Positions 14,154-32,464 of a stretch of DNA of 64,000 nt are shown piece by piece. Each line of letters begins with the position of its first letter. The first letter of the stretch is position 1. The stretch is taken from NCBI RefSeq assembly GCF_948948975.1, contig NZ_CARBVX010000006.1, positions 1 through 64,000 of the forward strand. Reading direction: 5' to 3'. The translations under genes were made by a program, and so were the position numbers. Origin of the DNA: an uncultured Lactobacillus sp. GTDB taxonomy: Bacteria > Bacillota > Bacilli > Lactobacillales > Lactobacillaceae. The notes beneath the pieces are model-generated. The model searched no databases, was not told the DNA's origin, and worked only from the letters and a program-made list of their open reading frames with translations.

Positions 14154-14167
14154 AGGGGGGGATCAGT

Positions 14168-14821
14168 ATGTTATCGGCTGTTCAGATTAGTAAAAAGTTT
14201 AAAGATAGAATTATTTTAAACGAGACTTCATGTGAATTTGAAAAAGGAAAGAGCTATGCAATTATTGGGCAGAGTGGTGCAGGAAAAACTACTTTTTTAA
14301 ATATTCTTGGAGGACTAGAACAACCCGACTCTGGGAAGATCTGTATCTCTGGAAAAGAAGTAAGTGAAAAAAATATAGATAAATTACGAAGAGATATATT
14401 AGGATATATTTTTCAAAATTTTGGATTAATTGATAATGATTCTGTTAAGAGTAACTTATCAGTTGGGATAAAGCATAAAAAGATGCCGGAATCCCAAAAA
14501 ATAAAATTAATGCATGAGGTTCTTGAGCAATTAGATTTGAAATATTTAGATTTAGAACGGAAAGTTTATACTTTAAGTGGAGGAGAGCAGCAGAGAATAG
14601 CCTTGGCGCGCATAATCTTGAAACAACCTCAAATAATTTTTGCAGATGAGCCAACAGGATCCTTAGATCCAGATAATGCTTCACTTATTTTAAAACATTT
14701 ATTGGCAGATTTTAGTAAGCAGGCAATAATTTTAATAGCAACCCATGATCCGAAAGTATGGAATGCCTGTGATTACGTAGTTAAATTAAACAATCAGACT
14801 ATTCAATTTGTTAAAAATTAA
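14168..14821 (+). CDS. Bacteriocin-locus ABC transporter ATPase
   Basis: A 217-residue LolD/MacB-type ATPase. Walker A GQSGAGKTT (about residues 34-42), Q-loop YIFQNFGLI, signature LSGGEQQR, Walker B IIFADEPTGSLD and ATHD are intact. Such ATPases accompany lactococcin 972-type loci and pair with the large membrane protein encoded just upstream. AGGGGGGGATC lies before the ATG. It probably powers bacteriocin immunity or release. Confidence 0.88.
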   Translation: MLSAVQISKKFKDRIILNETSCEFEKGKSYAIIGQSGAGKTTFLNILGGLEQPDSGKICISGKEVSEKNIDKLRRDILGYIFQNFGLIDNDSVKSNLSVGIKHKKMPESQKIKLMHEVLEQLDLKYLDLERKVYTLSGGEQQRIALARIILKQPQIIFADEPTGSLDPDNASLILKHLLADFSKQAIILIATHDPKVWNACDYVVKLNNQTIQFVKN

Positions 14822-24661: not shown

Positions 24662-25708
24662 GTGACTAAAAAAGATGTTCGAATTTTAGCATTTGAAAGC
24701 TCATGTGATGAAACTTCAACTGCTGTGATTAAAAATGGTCGTGAAATCGAAAGCTTAATTGTAGCTACTCAAATTAAAAGTCATCAACGCTTTGGTGGGG
24801 TTGTGCCAGAGGTAGCAAGTCGTCACCATATTGAAGTAATTACGCAGATTACTAAGGAAGCTTTAGATGAAGCAAATGCGACTTGGGCTGATATTGATGC
24901 AATTGCGGTCACCTATGGACCAGGTCTAGTTGGGGCACTTTTGATTGGTGTTAGTGCAGCAAAGGCTGCTTCAATGGCAACTGGAATTCCGTTAATTGGC
25001 GTTGACCACATTATGGGCCACATTATGGCAGCGCAATTAAAGGATGAGATTGAATATCCAGCTCTTGCCTTGCAGGTGTCTGGTGGACATACTGAGATTG
25101 TCTTGATGAAGGATCCGATCCACTTTGAAATTGTGGGTGATACCAGGGATGATGCAGCTGGTGAAGCCTATGATAAGATCGGCCGCGTTTTAGGTGTTAA
25201 TTACCCAGCAGGTAAGACGATTGATGAGTGGGCACATAAGGGGAAAGATACCTTCCACTTCCCAAGAGCAATGATGGAAGATGATGACTATGACTTCTCC
25301 TTCTCTGGTCTTAAGAGTGCCTTCATTAATACTTGCCACCATGCAGATCAAATTCATGAAGAGCTTAATAAGTATGACCTAGCTGCAAGTTTCCAGGCTT
25401 CAGTTGTGGATGTGTTAAGTCATAAGACAATTAGAGCAATTAAGGAATATAAGCCGAAGACCTTTATTCTAGGCGGCGGGGTCGCCGCAAACCACGGCTT
25501 ACGGGATAGATTAGCAGAAGAGATTGAAAAGTTGCCTGCTGATATTAAGCCAAAGGTAATCTTGCCAGACTTGAAGCTTTGCGGTGATAATGCAGCAATG
25601 ATTGGTGCAGCTGCTTATAACTTGTATCAAGCAGGTAAGTTTAGTGATGTGAACTTAAATGCAGATCCATCACTTGAGTTGCCATATGCCGATAGCATGT
25701 TGAAATAA
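24662..25708 (+). CDS. tsaD: tRNA N6-adenosine threonylcarbamoyltransferase TsaD
   Basis: A 348-residue ASKHA enzyme. Early [12 protein letters not shown], the metal-binding HIMGHI (HxxxH), [10 protein letters not shown] and the [14 protein letters not shown] phosphate loop are intact. It transfers the threonylcarbamoyl group to A37. It starts with GTG at 24662, with GGAAGAG 8 bases upstream. Strong terminator downstream. Confidence 0.96.
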
Positions 25709-25760
25709 GAGCTAGAAAATAAACGATAAAGAATAGTTAACAGAATAAGTTATTTTATGA

Positions 25761-25817
25761 AAAACCAAATGATGTTGAAGAATAACGTTTTTTCTTCGAT
25801 GTCGTTTGGTTTTTTTG
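25761..25817 (+). terminator. Terminator of tsaB-rimI-tsaD
   Basis: Long imperfect hairpin: AAACCAAATGA / TCGTTTGGTTT outside, GTTGAAGAA / TTCTTCGAT inside, then T-run. Confidence 0.85.
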
Positions 25818-25835
25818 CTTTGTTCGTAAAACACC

Positions 25836-25866
25836 TTGACAAAATAAAAAATGGGGGGGGTAAACT
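25836..25866 (+). promoter_or_regulatory. Surface-protein promoter with a G8 tract in the spacer
   Basis: TTGACA (25836-25841) and TAAACT (25861-25866) are separated by 19 bases, the last eight of which are G (25853-25860). Loss of two G would give the optimal 17-base spacer. Homopolymeric spacer tracts are a known basis of phase-variable promoters in other bacteria; here it is inferred. Confidence 0.65.
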
Positions 25867-25926
25867 AGGCTTGTATCTACCTTTTAGATCGAACCCAGTT
25901 ATTTAATTATATTTGGAGGAGTAAGA

Positions 25927-28900
25927 ATGAAAAGTAAAAATAATAAGTTAATGTATGTCTCCGCTGCAGTGCTTGTGGCTGGTGCAGTAGCTGGCGTTAA
26001 TACTCAAAATGCTCATGCGGCTGAAGTTCAAAAGCAAGCTGATAAGAATGCAGCACAAAAGACAATTGATCAAAATCAAAAAGATTTAACTCAAACGCAA
26101 GATCAATTAAATAAAGCTCAAGCAGATCGTGATGAGGCCGCACGTAAAGTTCCAGATGCGCAAGCAAATGTTTTAACGGCTGATTCAAACAATCAATCAG
26201 CGCAAAATGTTTTAGCTAATGCTCAAGATCAATTAAAGACTGCTCAAGATGCACAAGCTAAAGCTCAAGCAAATTATGATGCTTTTTATGAAAATAATGT
26301 TAAGTCTGCACAAAATGATGTAAATAAAGCTAACGCTGATGTTCAAAGTACACAAGAACAAATTAATGTTCAAAACACTAAACAAGCAGAAGCTTTAAAT
26401 AATCAAAAAGGTCAAGAAGATGCTTTAAAGACAAATACTGAAACTTTGAACAAGACTAATGAAGAAATTAGTAAAACTCAAGGTCAAGTTGAACAAGCAC
26501 AAGAGACTTATGATGCCGTAAATAAAGATTATCAACCAGTTAAAGCAGAATTAGATAAGCAAGCAAAAGAAGCAGACGATGCTCAAAAGGCTGCACAAGA
26601 AAATGCTAAGGAATTAACTCAAGCACAAAATGAGTTGAAGACTGCACAAGATACTGCAAATAAAGCAGCAGAAACTATTAATAATGCACAAGCAAAATTA
26701 AAGAGCGATACCAATGCATTAAACGGTGCAAAGAGTGAATTGAGTTCAAAGCAAAAACAAGCTAGCGACTTAACCAGTCAACGAGATCAAGTTGCTAAAG
26801 ATTTGCAAATTGCACAAAACAAGATGAATACTGCAAAAGCAGAATTAGATGCAGATAACGATGCAGTAGTCAATACTATGGTTATGCCACAAGTTTACAA
26901 AGACACAGTAAAGAAGTGGACTGGTAAATCACATACCGATGATTATTACAAAGAAATGGAAGCCGCAAGCTGGATTGGCTGGACACAAAACGAATACAAG
27001 CATAATGAAGCTGAAAAGAATCATATGGTTGATTTAAAGCACATGTCTAGAGCCGACCAAATTGAATTGAATAAGTTTGGTATTGATTTAATTAATCAAT
27101 TAAGAAGTCAAATTGGCGTAGATCCATGGACATTTAATGAATCAGCCTTAGATTTCGCAAATGCAATTGCAGATAAATACGTGAAAGATGATTGGGATTC
27201 AGATAAGAATGGCCATGATAGTGCAGCAATCAATGAATTAGCACATAAATATGGCTTGAATTATGGGGTTACAAGTGATGGTACATATAGTAAAGATGGC
27301 CAATATTATGAAAACCTTATGACTGATCGATTCGGAAAAACAGAAATCCCAGTTGATCAAGTGAAAGACGAAATGGAAAAGACAGGTAATCCATATCACT
27401 ATAGTATTCAGTATTTAGCATATGGCCCAAGAAACACATATACACATTCAAAAGATGACTATACTAATCGTTTGGATGACATGGATCATTTGAAAAATCA
27501 AGTTTTCAATTCTATTAAACAACTTGTATTTAGTGATGAGGAATGGTTGCATGCAGATAGCCTTTTGTCTCAGGATATGTTCAACAATACCGCAAAAGGT
27601 AAAAATTATGCAGCAATTAGCATCAGTGTAAAGCCAACACCTGATCGTTGGGGCTTTGACGATATGCCTATTCACTTCATTAATGTTCATGAATCCCAAG
27701 TTTTAGATCCAAAAGTATTCAATGTGAGTGCAAATGTTCCATTAGATTCCAACAAATCCGATGCCGCTAAGCAATATTCTGAAAGTTTAGCACAAGTAAA
27801 CGATTTGAATGCTAAGAAATCAAACTTAGATAATCAAATTAATGGATTAACTAATAACATTTCTGATCTTACTAGCCGTATTAATGATTTAACTAAGTCA
27901 ATTAGTGACGGTAACAAGACTCTTGAAACTGCAAAGGCAAGTAAGACTGATGCAGACAAGAAGATTGCAGTTCTACCAGGTCGCGTTCAAGAATTGAAGG
28001 ATAAACAAGCATCCCTTGATAAAGCTCAGTCTAAGACAGAATCTGATTTAGCTACTTACCAAGCTAAGAATAAAGATCTTCTTGCTCAATTTAACGCTGC
28101 TAAATCTAACTTAGATAAGTTAACAGCTAAGTTGAATGACCTTAACAGTGCAAAGAGTAAGGCCGAAAGTGCAGTAGCAGAAAGCAAATCTAACTTAGAC
28201 AAGGCAACAAGTGAATTATCAGCTATTTCTTCTCGTTTAGATGAATTGAAAGCTAAGTTATCAACTGCTAAAACTACTAAAGAACAAGCTGATGCTAACT
28301 TAGCTAAGGCTAAAGCTGCATATGATGAATATGTAAGCACCCATAAAGATGTAATTGATAACTTGAACAAGGCAAATTCTGAATTAGCAGATAAGACTAA
28401 AGCTTATAACGAAGCAAAAGAAGACGCTGCTAAGACTGATAAGGAATACCAAGCAGCTCAAGAGGAATTGACTAAGTTAAACAATCATATTGAAGACTTA
28501 TCAACAGCAATTACTAACTATGAATCTAAGATCAAGCAATTAAATACTACAATCAACAAGCAAAAGGCAGACCAAAAACGTGCTGCTCTTGATGCTCAAA
28601 TCAACAAGGCTCTAGATAATGTTTCAGCTCCTAAGCATACTGCTACTAATACTAGTGTTCAAGCTGGCACTTCTAGCTCAGTAGCTCCAGAAGTTGCTGT
28701 ATCTACTACTCAAAGAAGTGGGGTCTTAACTAACACAGTAGTGAGATCAAATAATGCATCTGTTTTAAGCCCTCAAACTAAGAAGTTAGTTGCCCAAGCT
28801 AATGCATCTAAGAATTCATTACCACAAACTGGTGCTAACGATAAGCTCAGCGTATTTGCTGCTTTAGCAGGATTGTCTTTAGCATCCCTAGGCTTAGGCT

Positions 28901-28935
28901 CTTTAGTAAGCGACAAGAAGAGAAAGCGTAACTAG
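25927..28935 (+). CDS. LPxTG surface protein, SEC10/PgrA surface-exclusion type
   Basis: A 1002-residue cell-wall protein. Signal peptide 1-31 (cleavage after NAHA); a long coiled coil (about 32-310) rich in Q, A, K and D; a central globular region (about 315-600) with a CAP/SCP-like segment (ELNKFGIDLINQLRSQIGVD); a second coiled coil (about 620-900); then sortase signal LPQTG (965-969), hydrophobic segment and KKRKRN. This matches PgrA-type surface-exclusion proteins, which hinder conjugative mating or aid adhesion. No plasmid genes are nearby, so adhesion or surface masking is more likely. GGAGG ribosome binding site; the promoter upstream may be phase-variable. Confidence 0.9.
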   Translation: MKSKNNKLMYVSAAVLVAGAVAGVNTQNAHAAEVQKQADKNAAQKTIDQNQKDLTQTQDQLNKAQADRDEAARKVPDAQANVLTADSNNQSAQNVLANAQDQLKTAQDAQAKAQANYDAFYENNVKSAQNDVNKANADVQSTQEQINVQNTKQAEALNNQKGQEDALKTNTETLNKTNEEISKTQGQVEQAQETYDAVNKDYQPVKAELDKQAKEADDAQKAAQENAKELTQAQNELKTAQDTANKAAETINNAQAKLKSDTNALNGAKSELSSKQKQASDLTSQRDQVAKDLQIAQNKMNTAKAELDADNDAVVNTMVMPQVYKDTVKKWTGKSHTDDYYKEMEAASWIGWTQNEYKHNEAEKNHMVDLKHMSRADQIELNKFGIDLINQLRSQIGVDPWTFNESALDFANAIADKYVKDDWDSDKNGHDSAAINELAHKYGLNYGVTSDGTYSKDGQYYENLMTDRFGKTEIPVDQVKDEMEKTGNPYHYSIQYLAYGPRNTYTHSKDDYTNRLDDMDHLKNQVFNSIKQLVFSDEEWLHADSLLSQDMFNNTAKGKNYAAISISVKPTPDRWGFDDMPIHFINVHESQVLDPKVFNVSANVPLDSNKSDAAKQYSESLAQVNDLNAKKSNLDNQINGLTNNISDLTSRINDLTKSISDGNKTLETAKASKTDADKKIAVLPGRVQELKDKQASLDKAQSKTESDLATYQAKNKDLLAQFNAAKSNLDKLTAKLNDLNSAKSKAESAVAESKSNLDKATSELSAISSRLDELKAKLSTAKTTKEQADANLAKAKAAYDEYVSTHKDVIDNLNKANSELADKTKAYNEAKEDAAKTDKEYQAAQEELTKLNNHIEDLSTAITNYESKIKQLNTTINKQKADQKRAALDAQINKALDNVSAPKHTATNTSVQAGTSSSVAPEVAVSTTQRSGVLTNTVVRSNNASVLSPQTKKLVAQANASKNSLPQTGANDKLSVFAALAGLSLASLGLGSLVSDKKRKRN

Positions 28936-28942
28936 TCTGTCT

Positions 28943-29821
28943 ATGGAAGAGCGAAAAGTTCTAAAGCGCCTTGGGTTTAAAGAAGAAAAAGAGTTAGCTT
29001 CGATTGAACAACTGCAAGACTATAATATAAGTTATGCAGAAGACGATGAAAATTATTTTAATCTTTCTGATAAAGACGGAAAAAAGCCTGAAAAAATTAT
29101 AGAATCTTTTTTACAATATCATCGTTATCTTCTTCCAGTTTTTCATTATGCATATGGTAGGGTAACAATTACTGGTTGGCGTGCATGGCTAGAGAATGAA
29201 GTAGTATATTTCCATAAAGGTGCTAGACATGATAAGTCTTGGATACAAAAAAGATATGAAACGAGAGAAAACATGTCAAAGCATGATGAATCTAAAGATG
29301 ACTCAACTAATGGAACTACAGTTACGCATGTTGATTCGATTATGAGCAGTGGTGGAAAAAAATCATATCCTATAGATGCTGGACATGTTTTAGCTAAACT
29401 AACTAACCTAACTCCTCTTATTAGTGATTATCTGGGTAGTAATCAAAATTCTGATAATATTAATACTTATCCACAGTTTAAAAACGCTAATGAGAAAGAT
29501 AAAATAACCGACCATGATTATGGACAATTGCATTTTGAAAGAAAAGCTTTAGACAACTTACCATGTTATTACGAAGCAGAGGCAATTATTCGAGACTGGA
29601 ATGATGTAGTGCCGATTGGTACAAGAATTAGAATGATTGATGCTACTAATTTCAAGGAACATTTTCATGTCTTCATTCCAAATATTGTTCATGAGAACAC
29701 TTCTTCAAATTATATTTTAAGTGATGATAATAAGGTAGATGATTATCGCACCTTCTTTAAAGGAGGTGATTTAAACAGTCTAAAATGGAAAAAGGCTGAT
29801 ACTCCAAAGAATAATAAATAA
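28943..29821 (+). CDS. DNA/RNA non-specific endonuclease-like protein
   Basis: A 292-residue protein. The stretch IDAGHVLAKLTNLTPLIS (about residues 146-163), followed by an NxxNxxxxPQF segment and YGQLHFERKA, resembles the DRGH...N...YE arrangement of EndA/NucA-type nucleases with the first motif as DAGH. The catalytic His and metal-binding Asn seem kept, the Arg is replaced by Ala. There is no signal peptide. It starts 7 bases after the surface-protein stop without a clear Shine-Dalgarno, so it may depend on coupling. Function is a moderate inference. Confidence 0.6.
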   Translation: MEERKVLKRLGFKEEKELASIEQLQDYNISYAEDDENYFNLSDKDGKKPEKIIESFLQYHRYLLPVFHYAYGRVTITGWRAWLENEVVYFHKGARHDKSWIQKRYETRENMSKHDESKDDSTNGTTVTHVDSIMSSGGKKSYPIDAGHVLAKLTNLTPLISDYLGSNQNSDNINTYPQFKNANEKDKITDHDYGQLHFERKALDNLPCYYEAEAIIRDWNDVVPIGTRIRMIDATNFKEHFHVFIPNIVHENTSSNYILSDDNKVDDYRTFFKGGDLNSLKWKKADTPKNNK

Positions 29822-30732: not shown

Positions 30733-31251
30733 TTATTTTAACAAATCAGCTAGAGTATCCTCATTTGAATGATAGCTTTTATATCGTTTTAAAATTCGAA
30801 TTAACTCATCAAAATGATCATCCCAAAATTGGAAATTATCCTCGTATGATTTGACCTTTTTCAAATCATGATAATGTTCTTTTACAAATATACTAGGCTT
30901 TTTGTAATTGCCGTTTGTGTATTTTTTATAATCATTATGCAATAGGATAAACAATATTTCTATTTCAGGACGCGTAGTTAAATTGGTTACTTCTGATATT
31001 TTTGGAAGATAAGCTTTAGGTACGACAAAATTTTCGGATCTTGAATCTAATATGCGGTATATATGGATTTTTTGTCCAAAACTCTTATTTAAGTATTGCT
31101 TGGCGAACCTCTTACCATTTCGGCACCGAATAACTTCTTCTTGTAACACATTCTCTCGAGTACACCTTAGTGCATCATGATCTAAGAGAACGTCAATTAT
31201 TGCTTGTTCTGTATTTCCCTCTGCGATGAAAGCTACTAATTCATTATTCAC
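30733..31251 (-). CDS. Small TOPRIM/RloB-like partner of an ATPase
   Basis: A 172-residue protein. N-terminal VAFIAEGNTEQAIIDVLL has the glutamate-bearing strand-loop of TOPRIM-like nucleases, followed by IYRILDSRSENF (acidic position) and TRPEIEILFILLHNDYKKY, which resembles the conserved PxxE(I/L)xL segment of RloB/DUF4435-type proteins. It overlaps the upstream ATPase gene by 8 bases, so the two act together. By analogy with AriA-AriB (PARIS), AbiL and RloA-RloB it may be the effector of an anti-phage system. It is shorter than AriB. Assignment is tentative. Confidence 0.45.
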   Translation of the reverse strand: MNNELVAFIAEGNTEQAIIDVLLDHDALRCTRENVLQEEVIRCRNGKRFAKQYLNKSFGQKIHIYRILDSRSENFVVPKAYLPKISEVTNLTTRPEIEILFILLHNDYKKYTNGNYKKPSIFVKEHYHDLKKVKSYEDNFQFWDDHFDELIRILKRYKSYHSNEDTLADLLK

Positions 31252-32464
31252 GAATATTGTTCACCGCTTTCTTGGTAGCTTTTTTAAGCTGCATGTAAGC
31301 AGAATATTCTGGGGCAGTTCCGCCCAAATAATCTGATTCAAAGACATCACTCTTATTTAAATCACTTCTGACATTAGAAGACGAGTATCTTTGTAATTGA
31401 ATCTGATTATCTCTTTTAGCAATATAAACTTCATCTCCTCGTTCTAAATCATCTAATAACTCGGAATAGTGAGTACTGAAAATCAATATTGCGCGGTTAA
31501 CATTAACCTTTGGATCAGAAAAATCTTCAATAAAGGATCTAACGATAGCATGATTAAAGTGATTCTCTAATTCATCAACAAAAATTATTCCACCAGTTTG
31601 CAAAGCAGCAATCACACTCCCGTATAAAGTAATTCCTTTAGCCGTTCCAGACGATAAATAATGCTCAATAACATCGAATGCTGTTGCATTAATTTCTTCT
31701 TCACGATTCTTGAATTTTAGACGGTATAGAATTTTTAACTGACCAGATTCGTCTCTATCTTGTTCAATTTTCAAATATTCAATGGTTGGATCTAAATAGT
31801 TTAAGATTTCGGTTGGGACGTCTTTATCTCCATATAAAAGGGCGTTTACATTTGCAAGCATTAAGTTACCACTAATAGATTGAACGGCATACTTTTTCTT
31901 TGCTTGAACTAATCTGAAAATTGAATCATCAGGAGAGAGTAGAGAGGTAGCTTCTTCACTCAACTTATTCCTATCAAAAAGTGGATCAATATTTTTGAAA
32001 TTTAAGATATTTTTCTTGGTAGATCTCTTATTAAATTTCTTTTCGTAAATCACTTCATTGCCAATGATCCACTTTTTATTTGGACTAGTTTTATCTAAAT
32101 TGAAAGTAATCACATCTTTATATAAAATCTCATCTTCACCATAAAAGTAGGTCGTGACCTTTATTGGTTCTGTTCCAATAAAAATGTCCTGAAGGGAAGT
32201 TTGGTCAATTGACATTCTATATAAAAGCAATTTAAGCATCCCGATGATGGTACTCATAATCGTTGTCTTACCGGTAGCATTTTTACCAACAATAGTGATG
32301 ATATTATTGATCCAAAGATTTCCAGCAAGATGTGTTAGTTGACTTTTAGTGCTTTCTAGTACACGTGCATCACTCATGAGTGAAAATTCTAATTCATCAG
32401 AGAATAAGGGATGATTTTCTATTTTCATTTTTAGAAAATAAAGTTTATTAGTCTTTTCATTCAT
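31244..32464 (-). CDS. AAA/ABC-type ATPase of a two-gene, possibly defensive, operon
   Basis: A 406-residue SMC/ABC-like ATPase. Walker A GKNATGKTT (60-68), a signature-like SSGTAKG, Walker B GIIFVDELENHFNH (about 290-303) and the switch histidine in FSTHYSELLD. This is the AAA_21-type architecture found as sensor ATPase in several phage-defence pairs. It precedes and overlaps the TOPRIM-like gene. No other defence genes or mobility genes are adjacent. The cluster sits between a membrane protein and guaC, a likely accessory insertion. Confidence 0.7.
   Translation of the reverse strand: MNEKTNKLYFLKMKIENHPLFSDELEFSLMSDARVLESTKSQLTHLAGNLWINNIITIVGKNATGKTTIMSTIIGMLKLLLYRMSIDQTSLQDIFIGTEPIKVTTYFYGEDEILYKDVITFNLDKTSPNKKWIIGNEVIYEKKFNKRSTKKNILNFKNIDPLFDRNKLSEEATSLLSPDDSIFRLVQAKKKYAVQSISGNLMLANVNALLYGDKDVPTEILNYLDPTIEYLKIEQDRDESGQLKILYRLKFKNREEEINATAFDVIEHYLSSGTAKGITLYGSVIAALQTGGIIFVDELENHFNHAIVRSFIEDFSDPKVNVNRAILIFSTHYSELLDDLERGDEVYIAKRDNQIQLQRYSSSNVRSDLNKSDVFESDYLGGTAPEYSAYMQLKKATKKAVNNIRE

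Follow-up and report, generated by a model that had tools for sequence, protein, structure and literature searches.

Introduction

In Neisseria meningitidis, the promoter of porA carries a poly-G tract in the spacer between its −35 and −10 boxes, and expression is high with 11 Gs, 2.2-fold less with 10 and 13-fold less with 9, as reported in PMC3639595. The promoter of Treponema pallidum tp0126, encoding an OmpW-like protein, also has a poly-G tract between the two boxes, and its optimum is reported at a spacer of 17, as told in PMC7864442. The same source describes poly-G tracts in the promoters of further T. pallidum surface-protein genes (tprL and tprE/G/J), the tprL tract ranging from 7 to 11 Gs within isolates (PMC7864442). 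These systems, porA and tp0126 above all, are direct precedents for the general statement, made in a preceding sequence-only reading of the DNA analysed here, that homopolymer tracts in promoter spacers are an established means of phase variation (PMC3639595, PMC7864442).

The nearest published case found in a commensal Gram-positive bacterium is the pilus switch of Bifidobacterium breve, in which replication slippage in G tracts acts on sortase-dependent surface structures (PMC9187656). Those tracts lie in coding sequence and cause frameshifts, unlike the promoter tract described below; other G tracts, in promoter spacers of B. breve UCC2003, receive one sentence as a matter outside the scope of the paper (PMC9187656). 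Among lactobacilli, the surface adhesin gene msa of Lactiplantibacillus plantarum also has a switchable promoter, but the switch is a DNA inversion and not homopolymer slippage (PMC8493755). No report of poly-G promoter variation in lactobacilli was found among the papers listed from the open-licence PMC literature; a report elsewhere is possible.

The Lactobacillus promoter described here resembles that of porA in its poly-G spacer, in the surface protein downstream, and in that tract length alters the spacing of the boxes. Yet porA belongs to a different phylum and its effect has been measured, and tp0126 encodes a spirochaete outer-membrane protein for which reporter work is cited, whereas the Lactobacillus site, whose tract abuts the −10 box within a spacer of 19–20 bases, is known from sequence alone (PMC3639595, PMC7864442). 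We propose, at a probability of roughly 80%, that this site is a phase-variable (contingency) promoter and one of a larger set of poly-G promoters serving several surface genes. The bacterium would then probably turn its surface protein up and down at random, like some pathogens.

A Poly-G Spacer Promoter Ahead of an LPXTG Surface Protein

The window, i.e., the whole 64 kb stretch of DNA analysed, has a GC content of 34.1%, and the candidate promoter lies on its forward strand. The −35 hexamer TTGACA (25836..25841) is followed by an A-rich half-spacer of 11 bases (25842..25852), by the G8 tract proposed as the slippage site (25853..25860), and by the −10 hexamer TAAACT (25861..25866). The 19-base spacer (25842–25860), with G in its final eight positions, matches exactly what the sequence-only reading had described. 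As in porA-type variation, the tract sits inside the −35/−10 spacer, the boxes being assigned by consensus; TAAACT agrees with TATAAT at only 4/6 positions. A standard promoter scan covering spacers of 16–18 does not list the 25836–25866 site because its spacer is 19.

Immediately downstream is AGGCTTGTATC (25867..25877, +), similar in most copies of the promoter. CTTGTAT-like bases shared among the copies occupy the position expected for a sigma-A start, 7–9 bases past the −10 box, and transcription would begin near 25873–25875. An alternative placement, with the start inside the G run and the −10 box in the A-rich stretch, has a −35 region that varies between gene groups; it was rejected because the copies preserve TTGAC and the box that follows the tract (compared by eye). 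The promoter lies between a strong terminator-like hairpin and a Shine-Dalgarno (SD) sequence, GGAGGAG (25915..25921, +), with the ATG at 25927 and the −10 box 60 bases ahead of the open reading frame (ORF). The hairpin (25759..25815, +; 24-pair stem, T-rich 3′ side) belongs to an upstream gene of 348 aa (24662..25708, +), which we take to be tsaD-like; it was recognized by its fold z-score of −5.7, a simple terminator scan limited to loops of 3–8 having listed no terminator here.

The ORF (25927..28935, +) encodes a 1002-aa protein with a SEC10/PgrA domain at residues 293–714 (TIGR04320, 213.2 bits, curated cut-off 70) and an LPXTG anchor scoring above its cut-off (TIGR01167, 18.2 bits against 15.9); Pfam PF00746 falls just below its own (19.7 against 20). 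The PgrA-like LPXTG product named in the sequence-only reading is thus real, and the product is a surface molecule, as in the porA type. Among the 120 relatives listed, those with a readable source come from Lactobacillus johnsonii and are named as SEC10/PgrA, surface or hypothetical proteins. The model suited to the domain is TIGR04320; PF24161, precomputed for the relatives, is a CCDC39 coiled-coil model that matches in 0/75 genomes and likewise in none of 14 control genomes. The named founders of the SEC10/PgrA family act in surface exclusion during plasmid conjugation. A plasmid search for copies of the region gave no match. Seven bases downstream of the gene lies a 292-aa ORF (28943..29821, +) without a Pfam or NCBIfam match, possibly on the same transcript. 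Elsewhere in the window, on the reverse strand (30733–32464), an AAA_21 ATPase gene (PF13304, 46.4 bits) overlaps a 172-aa ORF without a Pfam match, and the two look like a two-gene defence-type pair.

The G8 tract is the sole G run of at least eight in the window on either strand, the next longest being a single G7 at 14155. The sequence-only reading called G runs of this length rare in so AT-rich a genome; comparison with dinucleotide shuffles makes run length in the window only mildly unusual: three G7 matches are seen against a mean of 0.59, and 6/100 shuffles reach three. On the sequences compared, it is the placement and conservation of the tract, not the run length, that go beyond chance, and a chance origin was rejected on the promoter-spacer placement together with the recurrence of the module described below. 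The G7 run (14155–14161) forms the SD region of a 217-aa ORF starting at 14168, presumably encoding an ABC-transporter ATPase-like protein. L. taiwanensis has GGAGG at this place (L349), and the run may vary the spacing between the SD sequence and the start codon.

Recurrence of the Module in the L. johnsonii/taiwanensis Group

The genomes referred to here as the group are L. johnsonii ATCC 33200 (G024), L. taiwanensis DSM 21401 (G072), the uncultured Lactobacillus metagenome-assembled genome (MAG) MGBC166701 (G001), another uncultured Lactobacillus MAG (G071), and G060, G022 and G015. Their shared loci, rather than a tree, suggest that they are one clade. Among the genomes compared, the one nearest to the window is G001, with 42% of its 31-letter words.

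A module consisting of TTGAC, 11 bases, G8 or G9, and a −10 box recurs ahead of several surface genes of the group. When 15 copies, the window included, were aligned at the −35 box, TTGAC and the 11-base offset were found in all of them, and 14/15 carried an uninterrupted G8 or G9. In readable copies the −10 box is TAAACT, TAAAAT, TAGACT or TACAAT, mostly followed by AGGCTTGTATC-like sequence. One copy (L054) has an extra T between the tract and TAAACT; another, the SEC10/PgrA promoter of L. taiwanensis (L265), runs from 2660 into Ns directly after its G8, where the tract itself may have broken the assembly. Upstream of the −35 box the gene groups differ by eye, except for the copy ahead of a mucin-binding gene (G060, G071), which is ~83% identical to window positions 25734–25908, terminator included, and seems to have arisen by duplication of the entire region. 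Because the copies are partly homologous by descent, as this one indicates, they are not independent.

The genes headed by the module encode SEC10/PgrA proteins (profile search), a YSIRK mucin-binding protein (Muc_B2, MucBP_2), a YSIRK-type protein in G022 (by eye), and an LPXTG-type protein without a SEC10 domain in L. taiwanensis. The start of the mucin-binding gene lies 450 bases downstream, and its assignment to the module is accordingly probable rather than direct. The sequence-only reading treated the site as a single case; it is one of a set. Across the genus, the pattern TTGACN{9,19}GGGGGGTAAA was found at 11 places in 8/75 genomes, and the reversed-pattern control at none. Two of these places, both G7, lack the 11-base offset (spacer 15 in G037, 16 in G059) and precede secreted-type proteins by eye.

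The same module ahead of several different surface genes, together with the similarity of the CTTGTAT-like bases after the −10 box, would also suit a tract that serves as the binding site, or operator, of a regulator of a surface-protein regulon, its conservation reflecting protein binding. We regard this as very unlikely, since in the promoters of LCP genes (see below) the tract lies mid-spacer, between different hexamers and flanking sequences, since unrelated bacteria have promoters of the same architecture, and since the shared CTTGTAT sits where the start-site region is expected.

The relation between gene and tract was also approached from the gene, by a protein search for the SEC10/PgrA domain followed by inspection of the upstream sequence. 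Nine long-frame hits were taken in the group (two each in G060 and G022, one each in G001, G024, G072, G015 and G071), leaving aside a 295-aa frame at G001:C2:120795. Eight of the nine proteins were scanned and all eight pass TIGR04320 (116.8 to 200.5 bits); the ninth, from G001, is near-identical to that of G060. The tract is present in 9/9 genes, as an uninterrupted G8 or G9 in eight (followed by Ns in G072) and interrupted in G024. The set outside the group comprised 19 long-frame hits, taken without a TIGR04320 scan and apart from the remaining hits, which are mostly frames of 200–450 aa with few longer; two (L252, L263) were dropped for want of a usable start. A G run of at least five within 200 bases before the script-chosen start, which in L251 and L260 is an internal GTG, occurs in 0/17 of the readable long homologues. 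As related genes are not independent, this result describes a lineage feature and not a rate.

Long G Tracts within the Group

Six group genomes contain 30 distinct tracts of G8 or longer, 1 to 8 per genome. Hexamers matching at least 9/12 positions around the tract, at a spacer of 15–21, were found on the G strand for 15/30 tracts and on the C strand for 0/30, compared with 4.4% of 19981 random positions in the same loci and 10/220 runs of G4–6. With the threshold lowered to at least 8/12, the G strand gave 16, the C strand 3, random positions 17.8%, and G4–6 runs 39/220. The L265 tract scores zero in this census only owing to its Ns.

Five of the 15 spacer tracts belong to promoters of LCP-family genes (L206 in G001, L209 in G060, L210 in G072, L201 in G022 and L215 in G015), and so occur in 5/6 group genomes. 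The family (LytR_cpsA_psr) was assigned by PF03816 for one scanned copy and by like N-termini for the others. Here, G8 or G9 stands in mid-spacer, with spacers of 18–19, and these putative promoters are a second poly-G design, separate from the module, on a wall-assembly-type gene. A G8–G10 tract also lies ~290–300 bases upstream of a 437-aa ORF, presumably MurC-like, in L202, L205, L207 and L213 (lengths 10, 9, 9 and 8), with no promoter-like hexamers around the tract in these four genomes. Coding sequences of surface-type proteins hold further G8–G10 tracts (L198 in G022; L042 and L214 in G015); the frames of L198 and L042 stop a short distance past the coding tract, and both genes also have a poly-G promoter. 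Some census tracts have no explained place. Exact-consensus promoters in four group genomes numbered 35 against 47 in the reversed control; they show no excess and do not fix the spacer optimum.

Poly-G Spacer Promoters in Other Lineages

A scan of the family gave 11 places in 9/397 genomes, with four places in the reversed control. Four of the 11 lie outside the genus, two of them ahead of SEC10/PgrA genes (one second genus). G346 has G9 and a spacer of 19, and G443 has G7 and a spacer of 18; the TIGR04320 scores are 180.2 and 215.7 bits, the domain in G346 being in a second frame after one of 184 codons. By eye, the G6 place L064 lies ahead of a membrane-type protein, and L065, also G6, appears to fall inside coding sequence.

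Among 84,980 species genomes from all bacteria, the pattern TTGACN{9,12}TGGGGGGGGN{0,3}TAAANT matched 92 times in 91 stretches. The G run continues uninterrupted to the −10 box in 80/92 matches, though the pattern allows up to three other letters, and the sixth base of the −35 box is A in 77/92. Spacers of the 80 uninterrupted matches measure 17 (8), 18 (20), 19 (38), 20 (12) and 21 (2), counts whose limits (17 to 23) are set by the search pattern. An SD-led ORF follows within 300 bases in 63/80, and a hydrophobic N-terminus is found in 41/63 of these ORFs versus 132/432 of the other ORFs at these loci (Fisher p 3e-7); these all-bacteria figures are indicative, as the scan was run without a C-tract control and copies within one genome are related.

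Two genomes contain many such promoters, against 0 in the reversed control. The Bacillota MAG SIG197 (G448; L085, L102, L106, L111, L120, L124) has nine of the form TTGACA..G7-G10-TAAAAT, with G7, G9 and G10, several of them ahead of like short secreted-type proteins, and may hold a large phase-variable family. The Treponema MAG Mgla_MAG_ref_134 (G449) has six poly-G spacer promoters, several (L097, L100, L105, L113, L145) ahead of lipoprotein-like ORFs by eye. In viral contigs, the poly-G promoter scan gave seven matches. Runs of six show no strand preference in these contigs (G6 before TAAAAT in 16 stretches, C6 in 15; G6 before TATAAT in 33). After removal of duplicates, runs of at least seven occur in 7/14 G and 3/10 C matches, the latter with spacers of 8–9, counts too small to carry a conclusion.

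These distributions bear on the idea that the tract is nothing more than a neutral run of Gs, or one that arose by chance, in a promoter passed on through gene duplication. The paralogous modules do share descent, at least in part. Against this idea, 15/30 of the G8+ tracts fall within promoter spacers and do so on a single strand, and the LCP promoter, a second genus and distant bacteria supply separate cases. Downstream of the sole interrupted copy (GGGAGGGG, in L. johnsonii ATCC 33200), the frame stops early, after 622 codons. Of all the explanations considered, we give this one the least credence.

Variation in Tract Length

At the corresponding locus, the tract is nine Gs long in G001 (G9) and eight in G060 (G8), while the flanks differ at 0/2017 positions upstream and 2/4000 downstream (ungapped). 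Within the ~6 kb compared, the two genomes differ in length only in the G tract. Length polymorphism between near-identical genomes, as in porA-type variation, is thus present in one pair, of which one member, G001, is metagenome-assembled, so that a one-G assembly error is possible. Two other G tracts common to both genomes, in the LCP promoter and at the murC-like locus, are G9 in both. The sequence-only reading had named a tract length fixed across strains as grounds for refuting the switch; in this one pair the length is not fixed. It had also envisaged states of G6 (spacer 17) and G7 (spacer 18); neither occurs among the 15 aligned module copies, in which uninterrupted tracts are G8 or G9 only (spacers 19 or 20).

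Poly(dG) stacks in a compressed, A-like helix. The G tract might then be a fixed structural part of the promoter, a spacer of 19–20 working like one of 17–18, and changes in its length would be rare and harmful. The 11 + 8/9 bases kept in the 14 uninterrupted copies, bar the extra T of L054, are in line with such a part, as are the all-bacteria spacers, which within their bounds of 17 to 23 are commonest at 19 and fall in number beyond. However, the near-identical pair differs by G8/G9, the promoters of one unrelated genome vary among G7, G9 and G10, and 17/17 readable homologues outside the group manage without the tract. A fixed structural role is therefore unlikely in our view.

Proposed Mechanism

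Under the phase-variable reading, sigma-A RNA polymerase would use TTGACA and TAAACT, and DNA polymerase would slip on the G8 tract, adding or removing one G and so giving spacers of 18, 19, 20 or other lengths. Each change would raise or lower transcription of the gene for the SEC10/PgrA LPXTG protein, and a clonal population would consist of cells with differing amounts of the protein. This scheme implies that the tract slips at a high rate in growing cells, that its length changes expression, and that the benefit lies in a variable display of surface proteins.

The known systems allow a tentative prediction of the direction of the effect. By the tp0126 rule, a spacer of 19 is below the optimum, and G8 should therefore exceed G9, with G7 predicted to be stronger still. 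Since spacers of 19–20 exceed the usual optimum of 17, the promoter may have low activity at all the lengths observed; the peak of the all-bacteria spacers at 19 instead suggests that spacers containing poly-G may work at, or favour, a greater length. The porA figures indicate that a change of a single G can have a large effect. We consider graded tuning likelier than a strict switch between ON and OFF.

A wider proposal is that bacteria have repeatedly evolved a widespread promoter design, made up of TTGACA, about ten bases, G8–G11 and TAAA(A/C)T, by which surface proteins are displayed stochastically. It would span Lactobacillus, a second lactobacillary genus, Treponema, Lachnospiraceae and other Bacillota, and would be tuned around spacers of 17–19, its tract directly adjoining the −10 box. 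Within the L. johnsonii/taiwanensis group, SEC10/PgrA, mucin-binding and wall-assembly (LCP) genes would each be varied independently by this design, as parts of one multi-gene system. We put this forward tentatively, at a little under even odds.

Implications

Most known cases of promoter slippage as a means of phase variation come from pathogens that live on mucosal surfaces (porA, tp0126). A candidate set that spans several genes in commensal bacteria, and whose design is found again in other lineages, is of more than ordinary interest. If the phase-variable reading is true, cultures of these gut lactobacilli (the L. johnsonii group) used in probiotic and animal studies would be mixtures with respect to their surface proteins, and strain comparisons based on genomes may miss the expression state. 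Adhesion or immune phenotypes may then drift by one base.
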